Origin: Sediminibacterium sp.
GTDB lineage: Bacteria > Bacteroidota > Bacteroidia > Chitinophagales > Chitinophagaceae
DNA: 64,000 nucleotides
Assembly: GCA_017537025.1 (NCBI GenBank)
Contig: JAFWCB010000008.1
Span: 496,001-560,000 of the forward strand
Reading direction: 5' to 3'
Part shown: piece by piece, positions 8,484 to 60,117 of the stretch
How positions within the stretch are numbered: the stretch's first letter is position 1
Layout: each line of letters starts with the position of its first letter
Made by a program: the position numbers and the translations under genes
Notes under the pieces: model-generated
Database searches by the model: none
What the model saw: the letters and a program-made list of their open reading frames with translations, nothing else
Told to the model about the DNA's origin: nothing

Positions 8484-9497
8484 ATGGAAGCAAATAATCC
8501 CATATTCGGTGCCGCAGATAAAGAATTTGAAAATAGTATTCGTCCTGCTGCTATTACCGATTTTTCCGGACAAGCTCAGCTTATTGAAAACCTCGTAATT
8601 TTTATTAAAGCAGCTCGTTTACGCGGAGAAGCCCTGGATCATGTGCTTTTTCATGGCCCTCCCGGATTAGGAAAAACTACTTTAAGCCGAATTGTTGCCA
8701 ATGAATTAGGCGTAAATATCAAAGAAACATCCGGCCCTGTTATAGAAAAGCCGGGCGACTTGGCCGGGTTGCTTACCAATTTGCAACCGAACGATGTTTT
8801 ATTTATCGACGAAATACATCGCCTAAGTACCGTTGTTGAGGAATATTTGTATGCTGCCATGGAAGATTTTAAGATCGATATCATGATCGATACCGGCCCC
8901 AATGCACGTAGTATTCAAATTAACCTAAACCCTTTCACGCTGGTAGGAGCTACCACCAGAAGCGGATTACTCACCGCACCATTACTTTCGCGCTTTGGTA
9001 TTAAATCAAGATTAGAATATTATACGGCATCGATGCTTGAAAAAATAATTTTGCGTAGTGCGGCTATTTTACAAACAAATATTACAGCCGAAGCTGCTGC
9101 TGAAATTGCCGGTAGAAGTAGAGGTACGCCCCGAATCGCCAATGGTTTATTAAGACGGGTACGCGATTTCGCACAGGTATTAAATGATGGTACTATTGAT
9201 ATTGGTATTACACAACATGCTTTAAAAGCATTGAATGTAGATACGCATGGACTGGATGATATGGATAACCGTATTTTATCGGCTATCATCAATAAATTTA
9301 AAGGCGGCCCAGTGGGCATTACTACCATTGCCACTGCAGTTGGTGAAGAACCGGGCACTATTGAAGAAGTATACGAACCTTTCCTAATTCAAGAAGGCTT
9401 TTTACAAAGAACCCCCCGCGGACGAGAGGTTACTGCCAAAGCTTATAATCATTTGGGTTTAGCTCAAGGTGGAAAAGCGGGTGAACTTTTTACTTAA
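8484..9497 (+). CDS. ruvB: Holliday junction branch migration helicase RuvB
   Basis: A full-length RuvB of 337 residues. The ATPase core has Walker A '[15 protein letters not shown]', Walker B '[10 protein letters not shown]', sensor 1 'LVGATTRSG' and an arginine-finger region 'LLSRFG'. The C-terminal winged helix is complete ('[20 protein letters not shown]' followed by '[10 protein letters not shown]'). It forms hexameric rings that drive branch migration with RuvA at Holliday junctions; no ruvA or ruvC is nearby. The stop codon overlaps the first word of a palindromic repeat element filling the 73-nt gap to the convergent response regulator. Confidence 0.98.
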
Positions 9498-9570
9498 TCT
9501 TCAATCTGGAATCTTCAATCTTCAATATGAAGTTTATTAATTCCAGATTATTGATTTCAGATTCCAGATT
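9495..9570. repeat. Palindromic word-repeat element A (ruvB end)
   Basis: The gap between convergent stop codons is filled by AATCTTC-type words. The left arm (about 9496-9527) has several copies of AATCTTC or AATCTGG, and the right arm (about 9538-9570) repeats them inverted (CCAGATT, CAGATTCCAGATT). AATCTGGAATCT occurs in the left arm and as its reverse complement in the right arm. The left arm begins within the ruvB stop codon and the right arm ends at the stop codon of the response regulator. Confidence 0.7.
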
Positions 9571-10269
9571 CTATGGCGCTACCAACCTAAAACCATTTCC
9601 ATGAATATTTACAATTTCAATAGCTGAATCTTCTTTTAAATATTTCCGGAGCTTGGCAATATATACATCCATGCTTCTGCCATTAAAATAAGTATCGCTA
9701 CCCCATATTTTCTTTAAGGCACGCTCCCGAGGTAATAAATCGTTTTTATGCTCTGCGAGCATTTTTAATAATTCATTTTCTTTAGGAGATAATACTTGGG
9801 TACTATCCGCTTTTTTTAACTCACGTAGCTTAGGATTGAAATGATAAGAACCCAAATCAAATTCAATATTTTCATTTATTTTATTCTCCTCTTCATTTCT
9901 TTTAAGAATAGCTCTGATCTTTAGTAACAATACTTCACTATCGAAAGGTTTGGTGATATAATCATCGGCGCCTAGTTTATAACCTTGAATGATATCTTCC
10001 TTCATTGTTTTTGCACTCAAGAAAAACAAGGGAATATCCAAATCAATATCTCTAATTTCCTCCGCCAGCGTAAAACCATCCATATTTGGCATCATTACAT
10101 CTAGTAAACATATATCAAACTTCTCTCTCTGAAAAGCAGCTAGGCCTAATCGGCCATCTCGCTCTAATGTAACATCAAACTCATTGAGTTCTAGGTAGTT
10201 TTTCAATACCATTCCAAGGTTTGTATCATCTTCGCAAAGGAGGACCTTATATTGTCTTTTTTCTTCCAT
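9571..10269 (-). CDS. OmpR/PhoB-type response regulator
   Basis: I place the start at the ATG at 10269 (232 residues, 'MEEKRQYKVLLCEDDTN'); the longer open frame adds 65 residues unlike any receiver domain. The receiver has acidic residues 'CEDD', the phosphorylated Asp in 'ICLLDVMMPNMDG', a switch residue in 'FFLSAK' and Lys in 'DDYITKPFD'. The C-terminal winged helix is OmpR-type ('LSPKENELLKMLAEH', 'GRSMDVYIAKLRKYL', 'NIHGNGFRLV'). It resembles the RprY regulator of Bacteroidota. No histidine kinase is adjacent, so its partner is encoded elsewhere. The 185-nt upstream region shows no convincing promoter. Confidence 0.9.
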   Translation of the reverse strand: MEEKRQYKVLLCEDDTNLGMVLKNYLELNEFDVTLERDGRLGLAAFQREKFDICLLDVMMPNMDGFTLAEEIRDIDLDIPLFFLSAKTMKEDIIQGYKLGADDYITKPFDSEVLLLKIRAILKRNEEENKINENIEFDLGSYHFNPKLRELKKADSTQVLSPKENELLKMLAEHKNDLLPRERALKKIWGSDTYFNGRSMDVYIAKLRKYLKEDSAIEIVNIHGNGFRLVAP

Positions 10270-21522: not shown

Positions 21523-21634
21523 GGGAGGAATAGGTTATAGGTAATAGGTTATAGGTGATAGAATTTTTCTTATTCTTAAACTTAATAACTTACTCTATTT
21601 ATTCCCTATTCCCTATAACCTATTCCTCCCTATC
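21523..21634. repeat. Palindromic word-repeat element B (porX upstream)
   Basis: GGGAGGAATAGGTTATAGG (21523-21541) and CCTATAACCTATTCCTCCC (21612-21630) form a perfect 19-bp inverted repeat. Inside it, the words AATAGGTTATAGG (left) and TATTCCCTATTCC (right) iterate. The right arm ends 4 nt before the porX ATG, leaving no room for a normal ribosome binding site. Confidence 0.8.
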
Positions 21635-30684: not shown

Positions 30685-31377
30685 TTATTTTTTTTCTTTT
30701 CTGGGATTGGTTAAAAGTACCTCATCTACTAAACCATATTCTTTTGCTTCTACTGCGGTCATCCAAAAATCACGATCACTGTCTTTAGCAATAGTTTCAA
30801 CCGATTTACCGGTATGATTCGCTGTAATAGTATATAATTCTTGTTTTAGTTTTTTAATTTCCCTAGCGGTGATCTCTATATCGCTTGCTTGTCCGCCAAT
30901 ACCCCCACTTGGTTGGTGAATCATGATCCTACTATGTTTTAAAGCAGTTCGCTTTCCTTTTACACCTGCACAAAGCAAAATCTGTCCCATACTGGCCGCA
31001 ATACCTGTACAAATAGTAGCTACATCGGGGCCTATAAATTGCATAGTGTCATAAATACCTAAGCCGGCATATACACTACCACCAGGACTATTAATATACA
31101 TCTGTATATCTCTACTACGGTCGGTACTTTCAAGAAAAAGTAACTGGGCAGTAACGATATTAGCCACATAATCGTTGATTCCTTCTCCTAAAAAAATGAT
31201 CCGATCCATCATAAGCCGACTGAATACGTCCATACTAGCAACATTTAGTGGCCTTTCTTCGATGATATAAGGAGTAAGATTAGTAAACTGTTTTGCCGCC
31301 TTATAATTATGCATCACAGCACTGCTGATGCCTTGATGTTTTACAGCAAATTTTTCAAATTCATTTCCGATGTTCAT
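30685..31377 (-). CDS. clpP: ATP-dependent Clp protease proteolytic subunit (first copy)
   Basis: A 230-residue ClpP. The triad is Ser in 'GIAASMGQILLCAG', His in 'SRIMIHQPSGG', and Asp in 'DSDRDFWMTA'. The C terminus is basic ('LLTNPRKEKK'), and the N-terminal propeptide-like stretch of about 35 residues may be processed. It lies downstream of tig across a 222-nt gap that contains palindromic element C, and upstream of the second clpP. Confidence 0.95.
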   Translation of the reverse strand: MNIGNEFEKFAVKHQGISSAVMHNYKAAKQFTNLTPYIIEERPLNVASMDVFSRLMMDRIIFLGEGINDYVANIVTAQLLFLESTDRSRDIQMYINSPGGSVYAGLGIYDTMQFIGPDVATICTGIAASMGQILLCAGVKGKRTALKHSRIMIHQPSGGIGGQASDIEITAREIKKLKQELYTITANHTGKSVETIAKDSDRDFWMTAVEAKEYGLVDEVLLTNPRKEKK

Positions 31378-31477: not shown

Positions 31478-31599
31478 GGAGGGGAAGGTATAAGCAGTAA
31501 GGTGAAAGGTGGAAGGGATAAGGTGGAAGGGATAGAATAAAAGCTATAAGCTATAAGGCATAGGGTATACCTTACAGCTTACGACTTTCAGCTTTACCT
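31478..31599. repeat. Palindromic word-repeat element C (tig-clpP gap)
   Basis: The left part iterates GGTGAAAGG, GGTGGAAGGGATAAGG and AGCTATAAGCTATAAGG. An inverted pair follows: AAAGCTATAAGCTATAAGG (31540-31558) against a right arm at 31570-31595 whose reverse complement contains AAAGCT, TAAGCT and GTAAGG. The right arm ends within 5 nt of the tig stop codon. Confidence 0.7.
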
Positions 31600-32964
31600 T
31601 TAATGATGGTGATTCTCTACCAGTTTTGTAAATTCTTCAACACTTATAGGAGCTTCTTTGGCAACAACCTGTGTTTCCAGTACATTAAATAGTTTTTCGG
31701 CACTAATGCGATGATAGCTATCCTCAACAAATTTTTTATCCTGCATCATTCGATTTGCATAATCTTCAACCCATTGCTGATTATCACCTAAGGCACCAAG
31801 TTGCCCACCCATGTAGCTGAATAATTGCATCTTAGCAAAATTCCGGATATCTTCCGGCAACACTTCAATTTTGTTGTCTTGGGTAAGTTTTGAGCTTATT
31901 AAAGTCCACTTTAATTGATTTACAAAAACGGGGTAATCTTTTTCCGCTTCTTCTGCCGTTTTCGGCTTTTCACCACCCGATTGTAACCAACGTTTCAAAA
32001 AGCTTTCAGGGAATTCAATAGATACATTATCAAGTAAAGCATGATAAATCTGGTCTTGCATTTGATTGCGAGCAGATTGATCATAATATTTTTCAATCTC
32101 TTCTTTAACGGCATTTCTAAAATCTGCTTCTGTTTTAATACTATCATTATTGGGATATGCAGCCAGAAAAAATTCTTCATTTAATTCGGCCTTCTCCACC
32201 AATCCAACTTTGGTAATTGTTAGGTTGAAGAAACGATTGTTATCTTCTCTTTGTAAACCTAAATCGGCTAGAATAGTTTCGGCCTCTTTGTCTTCAAATG
32301 CCTGACTGATTTGTAAATGAATCGTATCATCCTTCTTCTTTCCTTGTAAATTGTTTCGGAATGAAGGCGCAAAATATTTTACCAAGAGCGAGTTATCTTT
32401 TGTGATACCGCCTTCAAGTAGAGTACCGGTAGCATCTGTTTCAGTGAAGGTAACATTCAATACATTATCATCGCTATTTACGGCTTCCGGTTCGGTCATT
32501 TTACCAAAACGAGTTTGTAAGCGTGCAACTTCATCATTGATCATATCTTCTGTAACGGTTATTTTATAACGGGTTACAGTGATAGAAGATGGATCTAATT
32601 CAAAACTTGGCTTCAATCCAATTTCAAATGCAAAAGCATAATCAGCCGGATTATTCATATCTAAAGCTCGTGCATCAACGTCTAGTGGTAGTGGTTGTGC
32701 AAAAATATCTAGTTGTTCTTTTCCGATATAAGCGTTCAATTCAGCTTCTACTTTACGGAATATTTCGTCGGTAAATACGCTTTGACCGTACATTTTCTTT
32801 ACTAAACCGGCAGGTACCATACCCTTTCTAAAACCAGGAATATTTGCATTTTTTGCATATTTCTTCAAGCTTTGTTCGAAGCCTGTATAATAATCTTCTT
32901 TACTTAAGTTTACGGTAAGTTTATCATTCAATAAACCAATGTTTTCACGTGTAATGGTAGCCAT
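31600..32964 (-). CDS. tig: Trigger factor (ribosome-associated chaperone)
   Basis: I start at the ATG at 32964 ('MATITRENIGLLNDKLTVNL', 454 residues); nine extra codons upstream are not conserved in character. The ribosome-binding motif region is 'NIPGFRKGMVPAGLVKKMYG' (the GFRxGKxP signature with Met for Lys). The middle domain is a divergent PPIase-like region ('LLEGGITKDNSLLVKYFAP'), and a long helical C-terminal chaperone domain follows, ending in three His. Trigger factor binds at the ribosomal exit tunnel and shields nascent chains. It heads tig-clpP-clpP-clpX on the minus strand. Confidence 0.94.
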   Translation of the reverse strand: MATITRENIGLLNDKLTVNLSKEDYYTGFEQSLKKYAKNANIPGFRKGMVPAGLVKKMYGQSVFTDEIFRKVEAELNAYIGKEQLDIFAQPLPLDVDARALDMNNPADYAFAFEIGLKPSFELDPSSITVTRYKITVTEDMINDEVARLQTRFGKMTEPEAVNSDDNVLNVTFTETDATGTLLEGGITKDNSLLVKYFAPSFRNNLQGKKKDDTIHLQISQAFEDKEAETILADLGLQREDNNRFFNLTITKVGLVEKAELNEEFFLAAYPNNDSIKTEADFRNAVKEEIEKYYDQSARNQMQDQIYHALLDNVSIEFPESFLKRWLQSGGEKPKTAEEAEKDYPVFVNQLKWTLISSKLTQDNKIEVLPEDIRNFAKMQLFSYMGGQLGALGDNQQWVEDYANRMMQDKKFVEDSYHRISAEKLFNVLETQVVAKEAPISVEEFTKLVENHHH

Positions 32965-32988
32965 ATTACTTTTTTTGAATTCGGGGGG

Positions 32989-32996
32989 CAAAGGTA
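32989..32996 (-). promoter_or_regulatory. Candidate -7 element for tig
   Basis: The minus strand reads TACCTTTG, an exact TAnnTTTG followed by C, 24 nt upstream of the tig ATG and just after the tRNA terminator. Confidence 0.55.
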
Positions 32997-39004: not shown

Positions 39005-39457
39005 ATGCGTGTTGTGATACAACGAGTTAAAGAAGCATCAGTAAGGGTAAATAATGACCTTATCGGAAAAATTGATACCGGCTTACTGGTATTTGTTGGT
39101 ATAGAAACGGCAGATAGTGAGGAAGATATACAATGGCTCAGCCATAAAATAATAAACCTTCGCATATTTAACGACGATGATGGGGTGATGAATAAAAGTG
39201 TGCTGGATATAGGCGGCAGTATCTTACTCATAAGTCAGTTTACATTGCATGCTGCAACACAAAAAGGGAATAGACCCTCTTATAGTAAAGCTGCCAGGCC
39301 TGAAATTGCGATTCCTGTTTATGAAAAAATGATTACGGTATTAAACTCGCTTTTACCTAAACCTATTGCTACCGGTAGTTTTGGAGCAGATATGCAAGTA
39401 TCACTTGTGAATGACGGCCCTGTAACTATTATGATTGATTCGAGGAATAGGGAATAG
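39005..39457 (+). CDS. dtd: D-aminoacyl-tRNA deacylase Dtd
   Basis: A 150-residue Dtd of standard length. Active-site motifs are 'LLISQFTLHAATQKGNRPSY' (SQxT) and 'VSLVNDGPVTIMID' (the NxGPxT motif, here NDGPVT). It hydrolyses D-amino acids from tRNA in translation quality control. The final codons and the stop (AATAGGGAATAG) already have the vocabulary of palindromic element E, which continues directly after it. Confidence 0.96.
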   Translation: MRVVIQRVKEASVRVNNDLIGKIDTGLLVFVGIETADSEEDIQWLSHKIINLRIFNDDDGVMNKSVLDIGGSILLISQFTLHAATQKGNRPSYSKAARPEIAIPVYEKMITVLNSLLPKPIATGSFGADMQVSLVNDGPVTIMIDSRNRE

Positions 39458-39567
39458 GGAATAGTGGGTAGTGCTTAGTGCATAGTGGGTAGTGAGAGTT
39501 TAATAGTTATTTTTACCTAATCATATTAGACACTAACCACTATACACTAACCACTTTACACTATATT
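39445..39567. repeat. Palindromic word-repeat element E (dtd to mazG)
   Basis: The left arm (39463-39494) iterates AGTGGGTAGTGCTTAGTG and CATAGTGGGTAGTG. The right arm (39531-39562) has CACTAACCACTATACACTAA and CCACTTTACACT; its reverse complement has matching AGTGGTTAGTG words in the same order. The right arm runs to within 5 nt of the ATG of the next gene, and the left words begin in the final codons of dtd. Confidence 0.8.
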
Positions 39568-39894
39568 ATGACCCTCGATCAAGCCCAAAAACAAGTAGAT
39601 CAATGGATTAAAACCATTGGTGTCAGGTATTTCAATGAGTTAACCAATTTAGGTATTTTGGTAGAAGAAGTGGGGGAGTTAAGTAGGATAATAGTACGCA
39701 AATACGGAGAACAGTCTTTTAAAGAATCTGATAAAAAAACTGATTTAGCTGATGAAATGGCTGATGTACTATGGGTACTTCTTTGTTTGGCTAATCAAAC
39801 CGGTGTAAACCTTACGGAAGCTTTCCGGAAAAACATAGAGAAAAAAACCTTGCGGGATGCCAATAGACATAGAGATAATGAGAAATTACAGTAA
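39568..39894 (+). CDS. MazG-like nucleotide pyrophosphohydrolase
   Basis: A 108-residue all-helical protein. The MazG metal-binding signature is present: 'LGILVEEVGELSRIIVRKYG' (ExxE) and 'DLADEMADVLWVLLCLANQT' (ExxD). Known relatives hydrolyse (d)NTPs to monophosphates and pyrophosphate, a house-cleaning function. Its start codon directly abuts palindromic element E, with no Shine-Dalgarno. Confidence 0.87.
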   Translation: MTLDQAQKQVDQWIKTIGVRYFNELTNLGILVEEVGELSRIIVRKYGEQSFKESDKKTDLADEMADVLWVLLCLANQTGVNLTEAFRKNIEKKTLRDANRHRDNEKLQ

Positions 39895-39936: not shown

Positions 39937-41403
39937 ATGAGCAGTAATACCGATAATCGTTTCCAAGCTATTATATCCCATGCCAAAGAGTATGGATTTG
40001 TTTTCCCGAGTAGTGAAATTTATGACGGGCTCAGTGCTGTATATGATTATGGCCCTTATGGAAGCGAGCTGAAAAAGAATATCCGCGACTATTGGTGGAG
40101 GAGCATGACCCAAATGCATGATAATATTGTGGGGATAGACGCTGCCATTTTTATGCATCCTACTACCTGGAAAGCAAGCGGACATGTTGATAATTTTAGC
40201 GATCCGATGATCGATAATAAAGACAGCAAAAAGCGGTATCGAGTAGATCACTTGATAGAAGCGCGAGCAGATCTTTTGAAGGAGAAAGGTGAAAGGGATA
40301 AGGCAGAAGGATTAATTGCTGCAATGGAAAAATTTTTAGCAGAAGATGATTATGTTGGATTAAAACAATTGATTGAAGATGAAAAGATTGTTTGTCAGGT
40401 AAGTGGCACCGGTAACTGGACGGATATTCGTCAGTTTAATTTGATGTTCTCTACCCAGTTGGGTTCGGTAGCAGAAGATGCCGACACTATTTATTTAAGA
40501 CCTGAAACGGCACAGGGTATTTTCGTGAACTTTTTAAATGTGCAAAAAACAGCCAGGATGAAAATACCTTTTGGCATTGCACAAACGGGGAAAGCTTTTA
40601 GGAATGAAATTGTGGCGCGTCAATTTATTTTCCGTATGCGTGAATTTGAGCAAATGGAAATGCAGTTTTTTGTACGCCCGGGTACACAAATGCAATGGTA
40701 TAATTTCTGGAAAGAAGAAAGATTAAAGTGGCATTTGAGCTTAGGCATTCCTACTGAAAAATACAGATACCATGATCATGTGAAATTAGCGCATTATGCA
40801 GATGCTGCTTTAGATATAGAATATGAGTTTCCCTTCGGTTTTAAAGAAGTAGAAGGTATTCATAGCCGTACCGATTTTGATTTAAAAAGTCACCAAGAGT
40901 ACAGTAAGAAAAAGCAACAATATTTCGATAACGATATCGATGAAACAACGGGAAAGCCCTTTGGTAACTATATCCCTTATGTAGTAGAAACTTCTATTGG
41001 TTTAGATCGAATGTTCTTGCTGATATTAAGTCACGCTTATGAAGAAGAAACTATTATTAAAGATGATGGCACTTCTGATAGCCGAGTTGTAATGAAAATT
41101 CCGGCAAAAATTGCTCCTGTTAAATTAGCTATCCTACCCTTGCTTAAAAAGGATGGGCTACCGGAAATAGCACGGGAATTACTAGATAGCTGTAAAGCTT
41201 CTTTTAAATGCTTTTACGAAGAAAAAGATGCTATTGGGAAACGCTATCGTAGGCAGGATGCAATAGGTACTCCGTTTTGTGTAACCATTGATCATCAAAC
41301 CAAAGAAGATGGTACGGTAACTATTCGTCATAGAGATGCGATGACGCAGGAACGAATACCTTTAACAGCCGTAAAACAAATGGTTCTACAAGCTATTGAT
41401 TAA
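39937..41403 (+). CDS. glyS: Glycyl-tRNA synthetase (alpha2 type)
   Basis: A 488-residue single-chain class II enzyme. Motifs include 'GFVFPSSEIYDGLSAVYDYG', 'DIRQFNLMFSTQLGS', 'LRPETAQGIFVNF', the motif 2 region 'GKAFRNEIVARQFIFRMREF' with 'FEQMEMQFF', and motif 3 'PYVVETSIGLDRMFL'. The anticodon-binding domain occupies the last 120 residues. Residues 115-125 (KEKGERDKAEG) lie in a variable loop and are encoded by repeat-like DNA (see findings). It converges with the FNR gene, overlapping by 4 nt. Confidence 0.96.
   Translation: MSSNTDNRFQAIISHAKEYGFVFPSSEIYDGLSAVYDYGPYGSELKKNIRDYWWRSMTQMHDNIVGIDAAIFMHPTTWKASGHVDNFSDPMIDNKDSKKRYRVDHLIEARADLLKEKGERDKAEGLIAAMEKFLAEDDYVGLKQLIEDEKIVCQVSGTGNWTDIRQFNLMFSTQLGSVAEDADTIYLRPETAQGIFVNFLNVQKTARMKIPFGIAQTGKAFRNEIVARQFIFRMREFEQMEMQFFVRPGTQMQWYNFWKEERLKWHLSLGIPTEKYRYHDHVKLAHYADAALDIEYEFPFGFKEVEGIHSRTDFDLKSHQEYSKKKQQYFDNDIDETTGKPFGNYIPYVVETSIGLDRMFLLILSHAYEEETIIKDDGTSDSRVVMKIPAKIAPVKLAILPLLKKDGLPEIARELLDSCKASFKCFYEEKDAIGKRYRRQDAIGTPFCVTIDHQTKEDGTVTIRHRDAMTQERIPLTAVKQMVLQAID
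40279..40310 (+). repeat. Repeat-like words inside glyS (possible element I)
   Basis: AAGGAGAAAGGTGAAAGGGA followed by TAAGGCAGAAGG shares GGTGAAAGG and GGGATAAGG-type words with element C at 31500-31530. The block is in frame and encodes the charged loop KEKGERDKAEG. Confidence 0.4.
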
Positions 41404-55741: not shown

Positions 55742-55778
55742 CAACTATTTTTTAACCTGGAGTTTATTGGAAAGAATC

Positions 55779-58700
55779 ATGAGTGCGAAATATGCTGAAT
55801 TTTCGGGATTGAATTTACCCGCTATTGAACAGGAAATATTACAAAAGTGGATTGCGGAGCAAGCTTTTGAGAGAAGTATTTCGTTACGCGAAGGGAAAAA
55901 GCCTTTTGTTTTTTATGAGGGCCCGCCCAGTGCCAATGGTATGCCCGGTATTCACCATGTTATTTCTCGTACATTGAAAGATATGGTTTGTAGATACAAA
56001 ACCATGCAAGGTTTTCAAGTAAAACGTAAAGGAGGATGGGATACACATGGTTTGCCCATTGAATTAGGGGTTGAAAAAGAACTTGGTATTACTAAAGAAG
56101 ATATCGGTGTAAAAATTACTATAGAAGAATATAATGCCAAGTGCAGAGAAGCAGTATTGCGTTATAAAAAAGAATGGGATACCATTACTACTAAAATGGG
56201 CTATTGGGTGGATCTGAATAAACCCTACATCACATTCGAAAATGAATATATTGAAACGCTTTGGTGGATGTTGAGTGAACTTTACAAGAAAGGCTACCTC
56301 TATGAAAGCGTATCTATTCAACCCTATTCCCCTGCAGCGGGAACGGGATTGAGTTCACATGAATTAAACCAACCCGGTACTTATAAAGATGTAAAGGATA
56401 CGAGTGCGGTGGCGATGTTTGAAGTTAATCAATCTTCAATCTTCAATCTTCGCTCCTTTAAAGAAATTGACCCTTCCACCTTACACCCTACAGCCTCCAC
56501 CTTCTTTCTCGCATGGACAACCACTCCCTGGACCTTGCCTTCCAATTTAGGGTTAACTGTTGGGGCAAATATTGATTATATATTGGTAAAAACATTCAAT
56601 CCATATACCCACATTCCGGTTCATGTTATTCTCGCCAAAGCCTTATTGGGAAAGTATTTTAAGCCTGAAGGAGAAAATGGTGATTTTAATGCCTATAATG
56701 AAAAAGCAAAAATTTTGCCATGGGTAATACTTGCATCTTTCAAAGGAGTTGAATTAGAAAATTGTCAATACGAGCAACTACTTCCTTATGAAGCTAATTC
56801 TTTAGAAGCGATTACCGCTATTACACCCACTGCAAAACCATTCCGGGTAATGTTGGGTGATTTTGTTACTACAGAAGATGGTACCGGTATTGTACATACT
56901 GCACCGGCATTTGGGGCCGATGATTATAAGGTTGGTAAGAAATACGATATCGGTATCCTTACAATGGTGGATAAGGAGGGAAAATTTGTAGATGGACTCG
57001 GTGAATTTAGCGGTCGCTATGTTAAAAATTATAAAGACGACCCTAATTATGTGGATGTGAATGTAGATATCTGCGTGAAACTCAAAAAAGAAAACAGGGC
57101 TTTTAAAGTAGAGAAATACGAACACAATTATCCGCATTGCTGGCGAACCGATAAGCCTATTTTATACTATCCACTCGATGCTTGGTTTATTAAAACAACG
57201 GCAGTTAAAGATAGAATGGTGGAACTCAATAAAACCATTAATTGGAAACCAAAATCTACCGGTGAAGGCAGATTTGGGAATTGGTTGGAAAATATGGTTG
57301 ACTGGAATTTGAGTAGGAGCCGCTATTGGGGAACACCATTACCTATTTGGCGTACGGAAGATGGCACTGAAGAAATTTGTATCGGCTCTATTGCCGAGTT
57401 GAATGAAAGTATTCGCAAAGCCAATGAGGTTTTAGGTGGCGATATCAATAAACATTATTTGCATGAAGGAATCCTCGACCTGCATAAGCCTTTTGTAGAT
57501 GATATTGTTTTGGTGAGTGCAACTGGCAAGCCCATGAAACGAGTGCTCGATTTAATTGATGTGTGGTTTGACAGTGGTGCCATGCCATATGCCCAATGGC
57601 ACTATCCTTTCGAGAATAAGGATTTAGTGGATAAAGGAGAAGCTTTCCCGGCAGATTTTATTGCGGAAGGTGTAGATCAAACACGTGGCTGGTTTTATAC
57701 TTTGCACGCATTGGGAGTCATGTTATTTGATAGCGTTGCCTATAAAAATGTGGTGAGTAATGGATTAGTGCTTGATAAAAATGGGAATAAAATGAGTAAG
57801 CGATTGGGGAATGTTGTAAACCCTTTCGATACTATTGAAAAATATGGAGCAGATGCTACTCGCTGGTACTTAATTACCAACGCTTCACCCTGGGATAATT
57901 TGAAATTCGATTTAGCTGGTATACAAGAAGTACAACGTAAATTTTTTGGTACCCTATATAATACCTACCAATTCTTTTCACTTTATGCTAATGTGGATGG
58001 TTTTGCCTTTAAAGAGGCTTATATACCGCTGGCTGAGCGACCTGAAATAGATCGCTGGATCTTATCATCCCTTAATAGTTTAGTAAAAACAGTTACAGAG
58101 GCAATGAATGATTATGAGCCAACTATTGCAGGTAGGGCTATTGAAGATTTTGTAGATGCCCAGCTGAGTAACTGGTATGTGCGTTTGTGTAGGAGAAGAT
58201 TTTGGAAAGGTGAATATGAAGGAGATAAAATTGCTGCTTACCAAACATTATATGAGTGTTTAGAAACATTGGTAAGATTAATTGCGCCGGTTTCTCCATT
58301 TTTTAGTGATGCTGTATTTATGAATTTGAATGCTGTAACCAAGCGTTTTGATGTAACTTCTATTCATCATGCAGAATTTCCTGTTTGTAATGAGGCGGTT
58401 ATCGATCCTTTACTAGAGGGAAGAATGCAGTTGGCGCAAGATGCTTGCTCATTGGTTTTATCACTTAGAAAAAAAGTGAATATTAAGGTTCGTCAACCCC
58501 TTCAAAAAATCATGATCCCGGTATTAAACCCGGCCATGAAAGAGCAATTGGAGAAAATGGAAGACTTGATTACCGCAGAAGTGAATGTAAAAGAAATCGA
58601 ATACCTCGCCGAGAACTCTGGGGTAATTCGCAAAAAAGCAAAAGCAAATTTTAAAACCTTAGGGTCGAAATTAGGGGCTGCCATGAAAGAAGCGGCTGTT

Positions 58701-59153
58701 AAAATTGCTGCTTTTTCTCAATCCGAAATTTCAGTTTTAGAGCAACATGGTAAATTGAATTTGCAGATCGGCCCTAACAACTATACGATTGAGCTACAGG
58801 ATGTAGAAATTACTGCAGACGATATACCCGGTTGGAGTGTTGCTAGCAAAGGTGCGTTAACAGTAGCACTGGATATTACGATAACCGACTCGTTAAGGAA
58901 AGAGGGAGATGCACGCGAATTTGTAAATAGAGTACAAAATATTCGGAAAGAAAGCGGTTTTGACCTTACAGACCGTATATTCGTGCAAATTGAAGAGAGT
59001 CCTACCCTCAAGGCCTCGATTATTGAATTTAACGACTATATTTGCCGCGAAATTTTGGCAGATGGGATTGACTGGGTGCCCCAAATGGCTACTGGCACTG
59101 AAATTGAAGTCAACGACGTATTGCTAAAAGTGGTAGTAAACAAAAAAGGATAA
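55779..59153 (+). CDS. ileS: Isoleucyl-tRNA synthetase
   Basis: The ATG at 55779 gives about 1124 residues; a TTG four codons upstream is the alternative. It is the eukaryote-like class I form typical of Bacteroidota: HIGH-like motif in 'PPSANGMPGIHHVISRTLKD', editing domain 'AWTTTPWTLPSNLGLTVG', and KMSKS in 'NGNKMSKRLGNVV'. The C-terminal anticodon-binding domain is complete. Between 'DTSAVAMFEV' and 'FFLAWTTTPW' (residues about 216-243) it carries a loop encoded by short-word repeats (see findings). The stop is 4 nt before the DksA-like gene start. Confidence 0.97.
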   Translation: MSAKYAEFSGLNLPAIEQEILQKWIAEQAFERSISLREGKKPFVFYEGPPSANGMPGIHHVISRTLKDMVCRYKTMQGFQVKRKGGWDTHGLPIELGVEKELGITKEDIGVKITIEEYNAKCREAVLRYKKEWDTITTKMGYWVDLNKPYITFENEYIETLWWMLSELYKKGYLYESVSIQPYSPAAGTGLSSHELNQPGTYKDVKDTSAVAMFEVNQSSIFNLRSFKEIDPSTLHPTASTFFLAWTTTPWTLPSNLGLTVGANIDYILVKTFNPYTHIPVHVILAKALLGKYFKPEGENGDFNAYNEKAKILPWVILASFKGVELENCQYEQLLPYEANSLEAITAITPTAKPFRVMLGDFVTTEDGTGIVHTAPAFGADDYKVGKKYDIGILTMVDKEGKFVDGLGEFSGRYVKNYKDDPNYVDVNVDICVKLKKENRAFKVEKYEHNYPHCWRTDKPILYYPLDAWFIKTTAVKDRMVELNKTINWKPKSTGEGRFGNWLENMVDWNLSRSRYWGTPLPIWRTEDGTEEICIGSIAELNESIRKANEVLGGDINKHYLHEGILDLHKPFVDDIVLVSATGKPMKRVLDLIDVWFDSGAMPYAQWHYPFENKDLVDKGEAFPADFIAEGVDQTRGWFYTLHALGVMLFDSVAYKNVVSNGLVLDKNGNKMSKRLGNVVNPFDTIEKYGADATRWYLITNASPWDNLKFDLAGIQEVQRKFFGTLYNTYQFFSLYANVDGFAFKEAYIPLAERPEIDRWILSSLNSLVKTVTEAMNDYEPTIAGRAIEDFVDAQLSNWYVRLCRRRFWKGEYEGDKIAAYQTLYECLETLVRLIAPVSPFFSDAVFMNLNAVTKRFDVTSIHHAEFPVCNEAVIDPLLEGRMQLAQDACSLVLSLRKKVNIKVRQPLQKIMIPVLNPAMKEQLEKMEDLITAEVNVKEIEYLAENSGVIRKKAKANFKTLGSKLGAAMKEAAVKIAAFSQSEISVLEQHGKLNLQIGPNNYTIELQDVEITADDIPGWSVASKGALTVALDITITDSLRKEGDAREFVNRVQNIRKESGFDLTDRIFVQIEESPTLKASIIEFNDYICREILADGIDWVPQMATGTEIEVNDVLLKVVVNKKG
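56425..56505 (+). repeat. Repeat words in frame inside ileS (element H)
   Basis: Three exact tandem copies of AATCTTC (56431-56451) and, about 20 nt later, CCCTTCCACCTT with CCTCCACCTT. The first set matches element A after ruvB and the second is the reverse complement of words in element C. The insert encodes roughly QSSIFNLRSFKEIDPSTLHP and adjacent residues within a variable loop of the editing region. Confidence 0.6.
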
Positions 59154-59157
59154 TCTC

Positions 59158-60117
59158 ATGGCTACAAAGAAAGCAGCCCCAGCAAAAAAGACGGCTCCAG
59201 CGAAAAAAACGGCTAAGCCGGCTCCAAAAGCCCCCGCAAAGAAAGCAGCTCCCGCAAAAAAACCGGCAGCTCCTGTAAAAAAAGCGGCTCCGGCAAAGCC
59301 TGCCCCTAAAAAATCGCCTGCCAAAAAGGCGGCTAAACCTGTAGCTGCTCCTTCCAAAAAAGCATCTGCACCAGCTAAACCTGTAGCTGCTCCTTCCAAA
59401 AAAGCATCTGCACCAGCTAAGCCAGTGGCAAAACCTGCTCCTGCGAAGCCTGTTTCTAAAGCGGCGCCTGCAAAAGCCCCGGTTAAAGCTCCGGTTGCTC
59501 CTGCAAAACCTGTAGCCAAAGTGCCGGCTTCACCTGCGCCGGCTCCTAAACCGGCTCCGGCTCCAAAGCCTGCCGTTAAAGCCGCTCCTTTGCCTCCGGT
59601 AAAACCTGTAAAAAAAGATCCTGGCCCCATTAAGGATGTAAAACTTCCTAAAATAGCTACTAAAACCAGCGTTCCTTATAATCCTGGTTATACTTCTTTG
59701 GAGAAAAGAGTTGAGGTTGCCAAACCCGGTGGACCATTAGTAAAATATAGCGATAGCGATTTGAATGAATTTCGTGAATTGATCAATAAAAAATTGGAAG
59801 CTGCTAAAAAAGAGTTAGCCTATTTACAAGGATTGATTACACGTAAAGATGATATGGGCGGCGATAATGACGATTCTCGTTATATGACTATGGAAGATGG
59901 TACGATGAGTATGGAAAAAGAGCAATTGAGTCAAATGGCTAGCCGTCAAATCACTTATATTGATCACTTGGAGAAAGCGATTATGCGTATAGAGAACAAA
60001 ACTTACGGTATATGTAGAGTTACCGGTAAACTGATCGATAAAGCTCGGTTACGTGCTGTTCCCCATGCAACACTTAGCTTGGAAGCTAAATTGGGTTTAG
60101 TAAAGCCGGCGGAATAG
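59158..60117 (+). CDS. DksA/TraR-like protein with long Lys/Ala/Pro-rich N-terminal tail
   Basis: A 319-residue protein. Residues 1-165 are an extended basic region of Ala, Lys and Pro (AAPAKK-like units), similar in composition to histone H1-like tails and likely disordered and nucleic-acid binding. Residues about 195-319 form the DksA/TraR coiled coil ('ELINKKLEAAKKELAYLQGL') and C-terminal region ('YGICRVTGKLIDKARLRAVP'). The zinc finger keeps only one Cys of the usual four, so zinc binding is doubtful. Within the tail a 42-bp unit is exactly duplicated (59332-59415). Sequence composition is strongly biased relative to neighbours. Confidence 0.85.
   Translation: MATKKAAPAKKTAPAKKTAKPAPKAPAKKAAPAKKPAAPVKKAAPAKPAPKKSPAKKAAKPVAAPSKKASAPAKPVAAPSKKASAPAKPVAKPAPAKPVSKAAPAKAPVKAPVAPAKPVAKVPASPAPAPKPAPAPKPAVKAAPLPPVKPVKKDPGPIKDVKLPKIATKTSVPYNPGYTSLEKRVEVAKPGGPLVKYSDSDLNEFRELINKKLEAAKKELAYLQGLITRKDDMGGDNDDSRYMTMEDGTMSMEKEQLSQMASRQITYIDHLEKAIMRIENKTYGICRVTGKLIDKARLRAVPHATLSLEAKLGLVKPAE
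59332..59415 (+). repeat. Exact 42-bp tandem duplication in the Lys/Ala/Pro tail
   Basis: Two identical 42-bp copies (59332-59373 and 59374-59415) add 14 residues each (AKPVAAPSKKASAP). Being identical at every synonymous site, the duplication is recent. Confidence 0.85.

Follow-up and report, generated by a model that had tools for sequence, protein, structure and literature searches.

Tandem arrays of seven-base words in the editing-domain loop of ileS and in the spacers of a Sediminibacterium genome

Results

Two heptad arrays lie in frame in ileS

The window is the whole stretch of DNA that was analysed, 64,000 nucleotides from Sediminibacterium sp. (genome G000). It carries an intact ileS gene in which two arrays lie in frame within the editing-domain loop, together with arrays of the same period in several spacers. 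The features referred to below are as follows, with the strand where one was assigned.

8484–9497, ruvB
9496–9571, + strand, spacer arrays after ruvB, AATCTTC/AATCTGG units followed by inverted CCAGATT words, forming a hairpin
21523–21630, spacer heptad hairpin of ATAGGTT words and TATTCCC words (inverted arms of 31 nt, 90%)
30685–31377, clpP
31483–31534, clpP-tig spacer array of AAGGTGA/AAGGTGG/AAGGGAT units, holding the match to the second ileS word
31600–32991, tig
39444–39565, spacer heptad hairpin of GGAATAG and TAGTGGG words and CACTAAC words
55779–59153, + strand, ileS, isoleucyl-tRNA synthetase (ORF 55767–59153, first ATG at 55779)
56429–56451, + strand, first ileS loop array, (AATCTTC)3 plus a partial unit, reading NQSSIFNL
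56472–56499, + strand, second, degenerate ileS array, CCTTCCA CCTTACA CCCTACA GCCTCCA, reading DPSTLHPTA (lag-7 score 11)

The ileS product matches NCBIfam TIGR00392 with 1024 bits (cut-off 621) and Pfam tRNA-synt_1 at 4e-120, and a match was found in 59 of the 60 relatives searched. Residues 61–64 of the enzyme (window 55767–59153) read GIHH at the class I signature, whose usual order is HIGH; the aligned solved chain 8c8w has GVHH. Between MF and FFLAW the translated loop counts 27 residues, the length estimated in the preliminary description of this DNA, and the solved IleRS 8c8w is without 19 query residues at the loop site, as placed by alignment. An Rfam scan of the window returned tRNA only.

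TRF describes the first array as a period-7 repeat of 3.3 copies at 100%. AATCTTC starts at 56431, 56438 and 56445, the tandem triple spanning 56431–56451, which confirms the three exact copies first noticed by the preliminary description. Its observation that the same word follows ruvB was confirmed as well: AATCTTC occurs there at 9496, 9510 and 9517, the first copy being followed by one AATCTGG, and the first unit of the array overlaps the stop codon TAA. A short break separates the first ileS array from the second, at which CCCTTCCACCTT occupies 56471–56482. The reverse complement of this word, which had been assigned to the tig-clpP spacer, was found there twice, at 31506–31517 and 31520–31531, and a 34-base match with 82% complementarity links 56471–56504 to 31484–31517. 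With at most one mismatch allowed, CCCTTCCACCTT gave 4 matches, the loop's own counted, against 0.23 expected.

At lag 7 the top score within ileS is 16, against a maximum of 9.5 in 300 codon-order shuffles of the gene, none of which reached 16. As a single word, AATCTTC is mildly frequent (21 against 12.2 expected, with 1 of 100 shuffles reaching 21). The tandem AATCTTC array in ileS is not due to chance.

Strong hairpins among the spacer arrays

In the window's spacers TRF found period-7 arrays built from many different words, and many spacer arrays are paired in inverted orientation. The array beside ruvB folds at -19.6 kcal/mol, with none of 200 shuffles folding as well, and the hairpin at 21523–21630 at -45.8 kcal/mol (z -6.5). 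The hairpin at 39444–39565 lies between the gene for D-aminoacyl-tRNA deacylase and the next ORF; in the closest relative (G031) the orthologous spacer (L248) has words of CTATAAC type.

Five of the 14 pieces folded did better than all of their 200 shuffles, and all five are spacer pieces. For the other five spacer pieces, 3, 4, 18, 28 and 135 of 200 shuffles folded equally well, the last being a piece that contained chiefly one hairpin arm (L237:1290–1400). The pieces from within genes were equalled by 20 (ileS), 188 (gltX), 65 (leuS) and 10 (mutL) of 200 shuffles, and fold z was -1.39 for ileS (-5.8 kcal/mol) and +1.37 for gltX.

Period 7 predominates across the sampled genome

We scanned 464 kb of G000 for tandem arrays at a score threshold of 14. 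Twenty-four period-7 arrays were found, 19 mostly in spacers and 5 mostly in called ORFs, along with one array of period 8, one of period 9 and none of periods 4–6 and 10–12; one shuffled copy of the 464 kb gave no arrays. The scan of 1,077,917 nt (1.08 Mb, about one third of the genome, of which 1,012,422 nt are ORFs of at least 80 aa) at threshold 13 located 53 arrays of period 7 in spacers or on gene edges and a further 10 within ORFs, in 9 genes. Counts for the other periods, in spacers plus ORFs, were 5+3 for period 8, 0+5 for period 6, 3+0 for period 12, 0+2 for period 9 and zero for periods 4, 5, 10 and 11. Eighty loci from named relatives (799,767 nt, threshold 13) gave 29 period-7 arrays, in 15 loci, and 9 arrays of period 9, 4 of period 12, 3 of period 8, 3 of period 11, 1 of period 6 and none of the rest. 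The word match between ileS and the spacers is part of a family of period-7 arrays with many words.

The exact AATCTTC doublet AATCTTCAATCTTC is present at 13 loci of G000 (16 overlapping matches) and has 31 matches in G031; only one match was found across the other 35 congeners searched. In a genome of another family of the same order (G047), the reversed control pattern CTNCTAACTNCTAA has 69 matches, which suggest many arrays of a different heptad word.

Spacer arrays lie within 10 nt of a gene 3' end in 33 of 53 cases and within 10 nt of a 5' end in 13 of 53, and 31 of 53 are nearer to a 3' than to a 5' gene end. They occupy 13 of the 51 convergent spacers, 29 of the 264 tandem ones and 6 of the 97 divergent ones. 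Genes were taken as the longest ORFs of at least 80 codons, or 100 for these gene-end and spacer-orientation counts (array score thresholds 13 and 11), which makes the spacer classes approximate. Some arrays start on the stop codon itself (window 9496, L001, L230). At L231 and L234 the C terminus of an ORF is written by a reverse-oriented array and ends in KIED*, and arrays therefore seem to supply stop codons as well.

Units of other lengths were also seen. Coding arrays with an 8-base unit, of the CGGACTCC and TTCCGGAC type, occur at L129 9853–9882 and L321 14563–14601. An SLBB export protein and part of the deacetylase carry 8-base arrays. Since such arrays occur, and since the named relatives have nine period-9 arrays, a unit of seven may not be a strict requirement of the process. 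A second repeat, of CCCTTCGACARGCTCAGGG form, stands beside heptad arrays at L135:4588–5631, L131:16664–19999, L338:11175–12407 and L314 around 6040; three genes translate it in frame as LRQAQGD or LRQAQGN, and a version with one change is in a spacer. In the window, 59158–60117 is a lysine/alanine/proline-rich ORF of 18- and 42-base repeats, in which one 42-base unit is perfectly doubled at 59332–59415.

Arrays in other genes

The ten arrays inside ORFs are distributed over ileS, gltX, mutL (two arrays), ligA, metH and the genes for a polysaccharide deacetylase, an FG-GAP/ASPIC protein, the gldD lipoprotein and an O-antigen ligase. The gldD heptads encode VNSVKWIVSSVRSIVYGLLSIGYCLSSC, which should be the lipoprotein signal peptide, and those of the O-antigen ligase encode a partly hydrophobic stretch that we read as a predicted membrane segment. 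At threshold 9 the 464 kb yielded 10 in-ORF candidates; those scoring below 13 were not used, except for the second ileS array and a pseudouridine synthase array described below. Two weaker candidates were discarded: both proS (window 40279–40310, score 10) and a SpoU methylase (L120, score 10.5) have similar residues in relatives and look ordinary.

About 7 kb before the window, leuS of G000 carries (GACGGGA)3 in an editing-domain loop, which we take to correspond to the ileS loop by the known homology of the editing domains. The AATCTTC word class appears in three coding arrays in two species, namely ileS and gltX of G000 and leuS of G031, and array units are in both orientations in mutL of G000 and leuS of G031. 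tRNA synthetases seem frequent among the carriers (ileS, gltX, leuS), although the cases are few and one of them is the starting finding. As a separate observation, the LeuRS of G031, G000 and two more congeners (L283, L284, L285, L286) have in common a long extra segment, SPHTG...LEDLLN.R..., at query residues of about 588–650; most of the 29 sequences that could be read lack it, and L287 and L302 carry different extensions at these residues.

Words differ between close species at the same sites

G031 (76% complete, about 650 contigs) is the closest relative, with IleRS 94% identical to that of G000 over residues 2–616, nucleotide identity of 82–85% in ileS, gltX, mutL and the pseudouridine synthase gene, and 91% amino acid identity in LeuRS. 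Comparisons were made at the species level, with one genome per species. Five coding sites with a credible array in one of the two species were compared in both: ileS, gltX, mutL, leuS and pseudouridine synthase.

The ileS loop of G031 has the same 27 residues in length but is without AATCTTC, although 31 exact doublets of this word are present elsewhere in that genome. Part of the 3' heptads is common to both species (CCTTACACC), and the G031 locus L139 carries CCTTACACCTTAATGC at the site of the second array; the second word, which had been expected to be absent from some relatives, occurs there in a diverged version. Where G000 has VNQSSIFNLRSFKEID, G031 has ISRESLVNSQWYKNLT. The G031 form looks older and the G000 loop overwritten, because the more distant congeners L012 and L015 read SLNNSKW and SLEQAAW at this place.

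In gltX the units are CAATCTT in G000 and CAATCGT in G031, and all 4 units show this T/G difference (rough chance 1.7e-4). Gene length at the array is equal in 29 of the 30 genes compared, L169 being longer slightly further on. In mutL the assignment is reversed, G000 having AATCGTC (score 13) and G031 having AATCTTC words; the latter fall below array score, and an adjacent CAGATT array scores 11.5. We rejected a genome-wide switch in G031 from AATCTTC to AATCGTC: AATCTTC is the commoner of the two words in G031 too, and the change in gltX is therefore local. In leuS, G031 has (AATCTTC)3 and ten residues more than G000 with its (GACGGGA)3, and neither triplet was seen by eye in the other 28 sequences compared. 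In the N-terminal linker of the pseudouridine synthase (TIGR00093), G031 has a 74-base array of about ten CGAATCC/CGAAACY heptads, G000 a weak array (score 10), and G010 and G033 heptad-like words as judged by eye.

Fourteen comparisons of orthologous sites with flanks 72–95% identical comprised four coding sites, one duplicate and nine distinct spacers. Period 7 was the best of periods 4–12 in all G000 copies of the nine spacers, with scores of 7.5–27 against at most 9.5 for any other period. By eye, the words of G000 and G031 were wholly different in six of the nine (for example window 39441–39568 against L248, L125 9867–9965 against L238, and L316 10877–10975 against L237), partly different in one (L228 against L242) and related in two (L314 around 6040 against L234, and L232 against L244). 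The two spacers with related words indicate that spacer turnover is not complete. Arrays of other length or with other words were seen in the other species. The equal length of the ileS loop without AATCTTC, together with the differing words at other coding sites and in most orthologous spacers, argues that the loop has been overwritten rather than simply enlarged and that words turn over fast; equal length in the two species could come from selection on length.

Arrays recur in the ileS loop of relatives

We scanned 125 distinct ileS genes (130 loci, the window's included) at threshold 11 and found 16 period-7 arrays, one of period 6, three of period 9 and none of the rest. Six of the 16 lie in the editing loop, in five genes (L009, which is the window's, L039, L061, L067 and L090), and ten elsewhere in the open frame. 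No array of any other period was found in the editing loop of the 125 genes. Since the loop makes up 10,599 of 411,615 nt, the binomial P for loop against rest is 1.9e-6, with relatedness ignored. The loop arrays use five different words (AATCTTC, GGAACAA, CAACATT, AATTCAA and CTCACAT) and require at least four changes on a 108-tip tree built from sequence downstream of the loop, in which L061 and L067 are near neighbours with different words. The words of L067 and L061 each have one further place in their own genome besides ileS.

A second array site lies near codons 545–616 (L067, L068, L078, L094, L104), apparently one and the same loop before LDLH as judged by eye, and a third before PFR (L016, L039; by eye). 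The array of L066, at the very start of the open frame, may precede the start codon.

Loop length differs widely among the aligned relatives, as had been anticipated, and so does loop sequence; in the array-bearing genes the loop has 17 to 32 residues. The doublet AATCTTCAATCTTC, also expected to be missing from some relatives, is missing from 129 of the 130 ileS loci and was found in the window's own only. Loops were listed for 111 sequences (the window's gene twice) and for 19 of 20 in a further set. The loop motif gave partial loops in seven (L018, L019, L073, L080, L111, L116, L118), and array scoring used other anchors. We looked for an identical loop with the same codons in distant species, which would have made the word match a coincidence, and found none.

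Discussion

The ileS loop arrays probably belong to a family of heptad arrays that fills many spacers of this genome, is prone to slippage, spreads by copying and is kept in tolerant loops. The reading frame is intact, the period is seven throughout the family and arrays are spread over the sampled third of the genome. We propose that short period-7 tracts grow, shrink and homogenise by replication slippage. Loops of heptad-tract size would probably escape mismatch repair. In spacers, hairpin arms would be homogenised and kept matched by fold-back copying, and array sequence would be carried to new sites by copying, through ectopic conversion or template switching. Heptad tracts would occasionally arise in, or be copied into, coding loops. 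Most arrays would persist in spacers only, mainly near gene 3' ends; the few coding ones that persist would be those with a stop-free word in a surface loop or linker tolerating a new peptide. The ileS loop peptide would then be a tolerated passenger, presumably without function.

Because seven is not a multiple of three, the three frames of a heptad word all yield one and the same cyclic peptide. A stop-free word is therefore open in any phase, which leaves total length as the one constraint. AATCTTC reads NLQSSIF in all frames; its reverse strand contains a stop, so that it can survive in coding sequence in one orientation only. Since words read alike in all frames, heptad arrays should be unusually easy to capture. 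Selection of spacer words as open frames was considered and rejected: 33 of 53 are open, against 39.5 +/- 2.9 for permuted words, and 2 are open on both strands, against 9.3 +/- 2.5.

The array could instead have been born in the loop by local slippage from the native sequence, with no transfer, identical words elsewhere having arisen likewise. The loop of G031 contains weak heptad-like TCATTGG TCAATAG TCAATGG in the same phase (by eye; score below 9.5), loop length is unchanged, and other lineages carry period-7 arrays of different words in this loop, all of which would fit a local birth. This origin nevertheless seems doubtful, given that the doublet AATCTTCAATCTTC is concentrated in G000 and G031 and nearly missing from the other congeners. 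Moreover, three coding arrays in two species use one word class out of about 1,170 (4^7/14), as independent births would rarely do, and mutL of G031 has AATCTTC words as well.

Selection for a function of the loop peptide or RNA, for example in editing, in expression or as a regulatory site, is unlikely. The three tRNA synthetase carriers and the position of spacer arrays near 3' ends, with convergent spacers favoured over divergent ones, would agree with it. The peptide and its words differ between close species, however, loop length varies widely among the array-bearing genes, and the other carriers (deacetylase, FG-GAP protein, ligA, mutL, metH) are unrelated.

The preliminary description had proposed that an intergenic element was captured in frame in a tolerant loop, in the manner of Rickettsia palindromic elements. 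The repeat is indeed of the same kind as those in the spacers and it is in frame; a discrete inserted element was not found. Insertion of a mobile palindromic or MITE-like element would account for in-frame sites in tolerant loops of housekeeping genes, for the strong hairpins of spacer members and for both unit orientations in mutL of G000 and leuS of G031. It is made improbable by the lack of conserved sequence or ends, with words varying by site and species, by the unremarkable folding of the ileS and gltX arrays, and by the lengths: the closest relative has a 27-residue ileS loop without AATCTTC, and in gltX an array of the AATCTTC word replaced sequence with no lengthening. Chance resemblance of ordinary codons can safely be set aside, for although single AATCTTC words are common in G000 and the proS and SpoU candidates proved to be ordinary-looking conserved codons, the codon-order shuffles refute it and recurrence in the loop is restricted to period 7.

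Heptamer arrays as such are already known. According to the accessible part of PMC4692102, heptameric repeats are over-represented among bacterial tandem repeats, with GGGAATC in Xanthomonas and GGGGAYT in Nostoc near gene ends. The arrays of G000 likewise consist of head-to-tail seven-base units, dispersed and mainly extragenic (53 against 10), near or overlapping coding-strand stop codons. The Xanthomonas and Nostoc repeats use one G-rich word with a link to G-quadruplexes, whereas G000 has many words and hairpin pairs; and, unlike in the available part of that report, a given site here carries different words in close species, essential genes included (PMC4692102). For TAACTGA arrays the accessible account names Beggiatoaceae, cyanobacteria and five Bacteroidetes as carriers and places most of the arrays upstream of start codons (PMC4679880). 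They too are heptamer direct repeats in Bacteroidetes spacers alongside other heptamers. In F. litoralis one set of two falls within a putative purC, close to the end of the gene, and coding capture is expected there to be harmful because the forward strand encodes a stop. That system has a single word; in the present one, capture in coding sequence is seen repeatedly, across several genes and lineages (PMC4679880).

Rickettsia palindromic elements are described in the accessible part of PMC10969869 as palindromes of about 150 bp with a conserved peptide, nearly half of them in ORFs. Both systems place repeats in frame in unrelated housekeeping proteins, and the share in ORFs agrees with further Rickettsia copies in spacers; here the AATCTTC arrays are in spacers and in ileS and gltX. 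The arrays of G000 have no fixed ends, and words and peptides differ at orthologous sites, so that sequence and peptide are not conserved; a hairpin unit is formed by spacer members but not by the ileS and gltX arrays (PMC10969869). Borg tandem repeats, in the available text of PMC9879509, likewise evolve fast, lie in spacers as well as in ORFs, and give rise to new segments of protein. Their ORF units are all divisible by three, whereas the unit here is seven and the frame is held by total length. Recurrent in-frame heptad rewriting is not described in the accessible portions of PMC12699852 and PMC9426551. The literature searched, with most subscription papers and preprints outside it, yielded no account of Chitinophagaceae/Bacteroidetes heptad arrays or of intergenic-repeat capture in tRNA synthetase genes, and within these sources we found no description of recurrent in-frame rewriting of housekeeping genes.

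The different words of a close relative at the same places hint at a fast process that rewrites small pieces of proteins. As a tentative extension, Chitinophagaceae may have an active process by which seven-base arrays are written and rewritten as whole units genome-wide, spacer hairpin arms and coding arrays in concert. Housekeeping proteins would in this way keep receiving new stop-free peptides in their loops and linkers, in a lipoprotein signal peptide and in a membrane segment. If this is true, segments of essential enzymes would be replaced by repeats of non-coding type within the time of species divergence, and repeatedly in one loop. With such a natural series one could ask which loops in enzymes are free, by what steps bacterial heptamer arrays are copied and homogenised, and whether non-coding repeats regularly yield new peptides.
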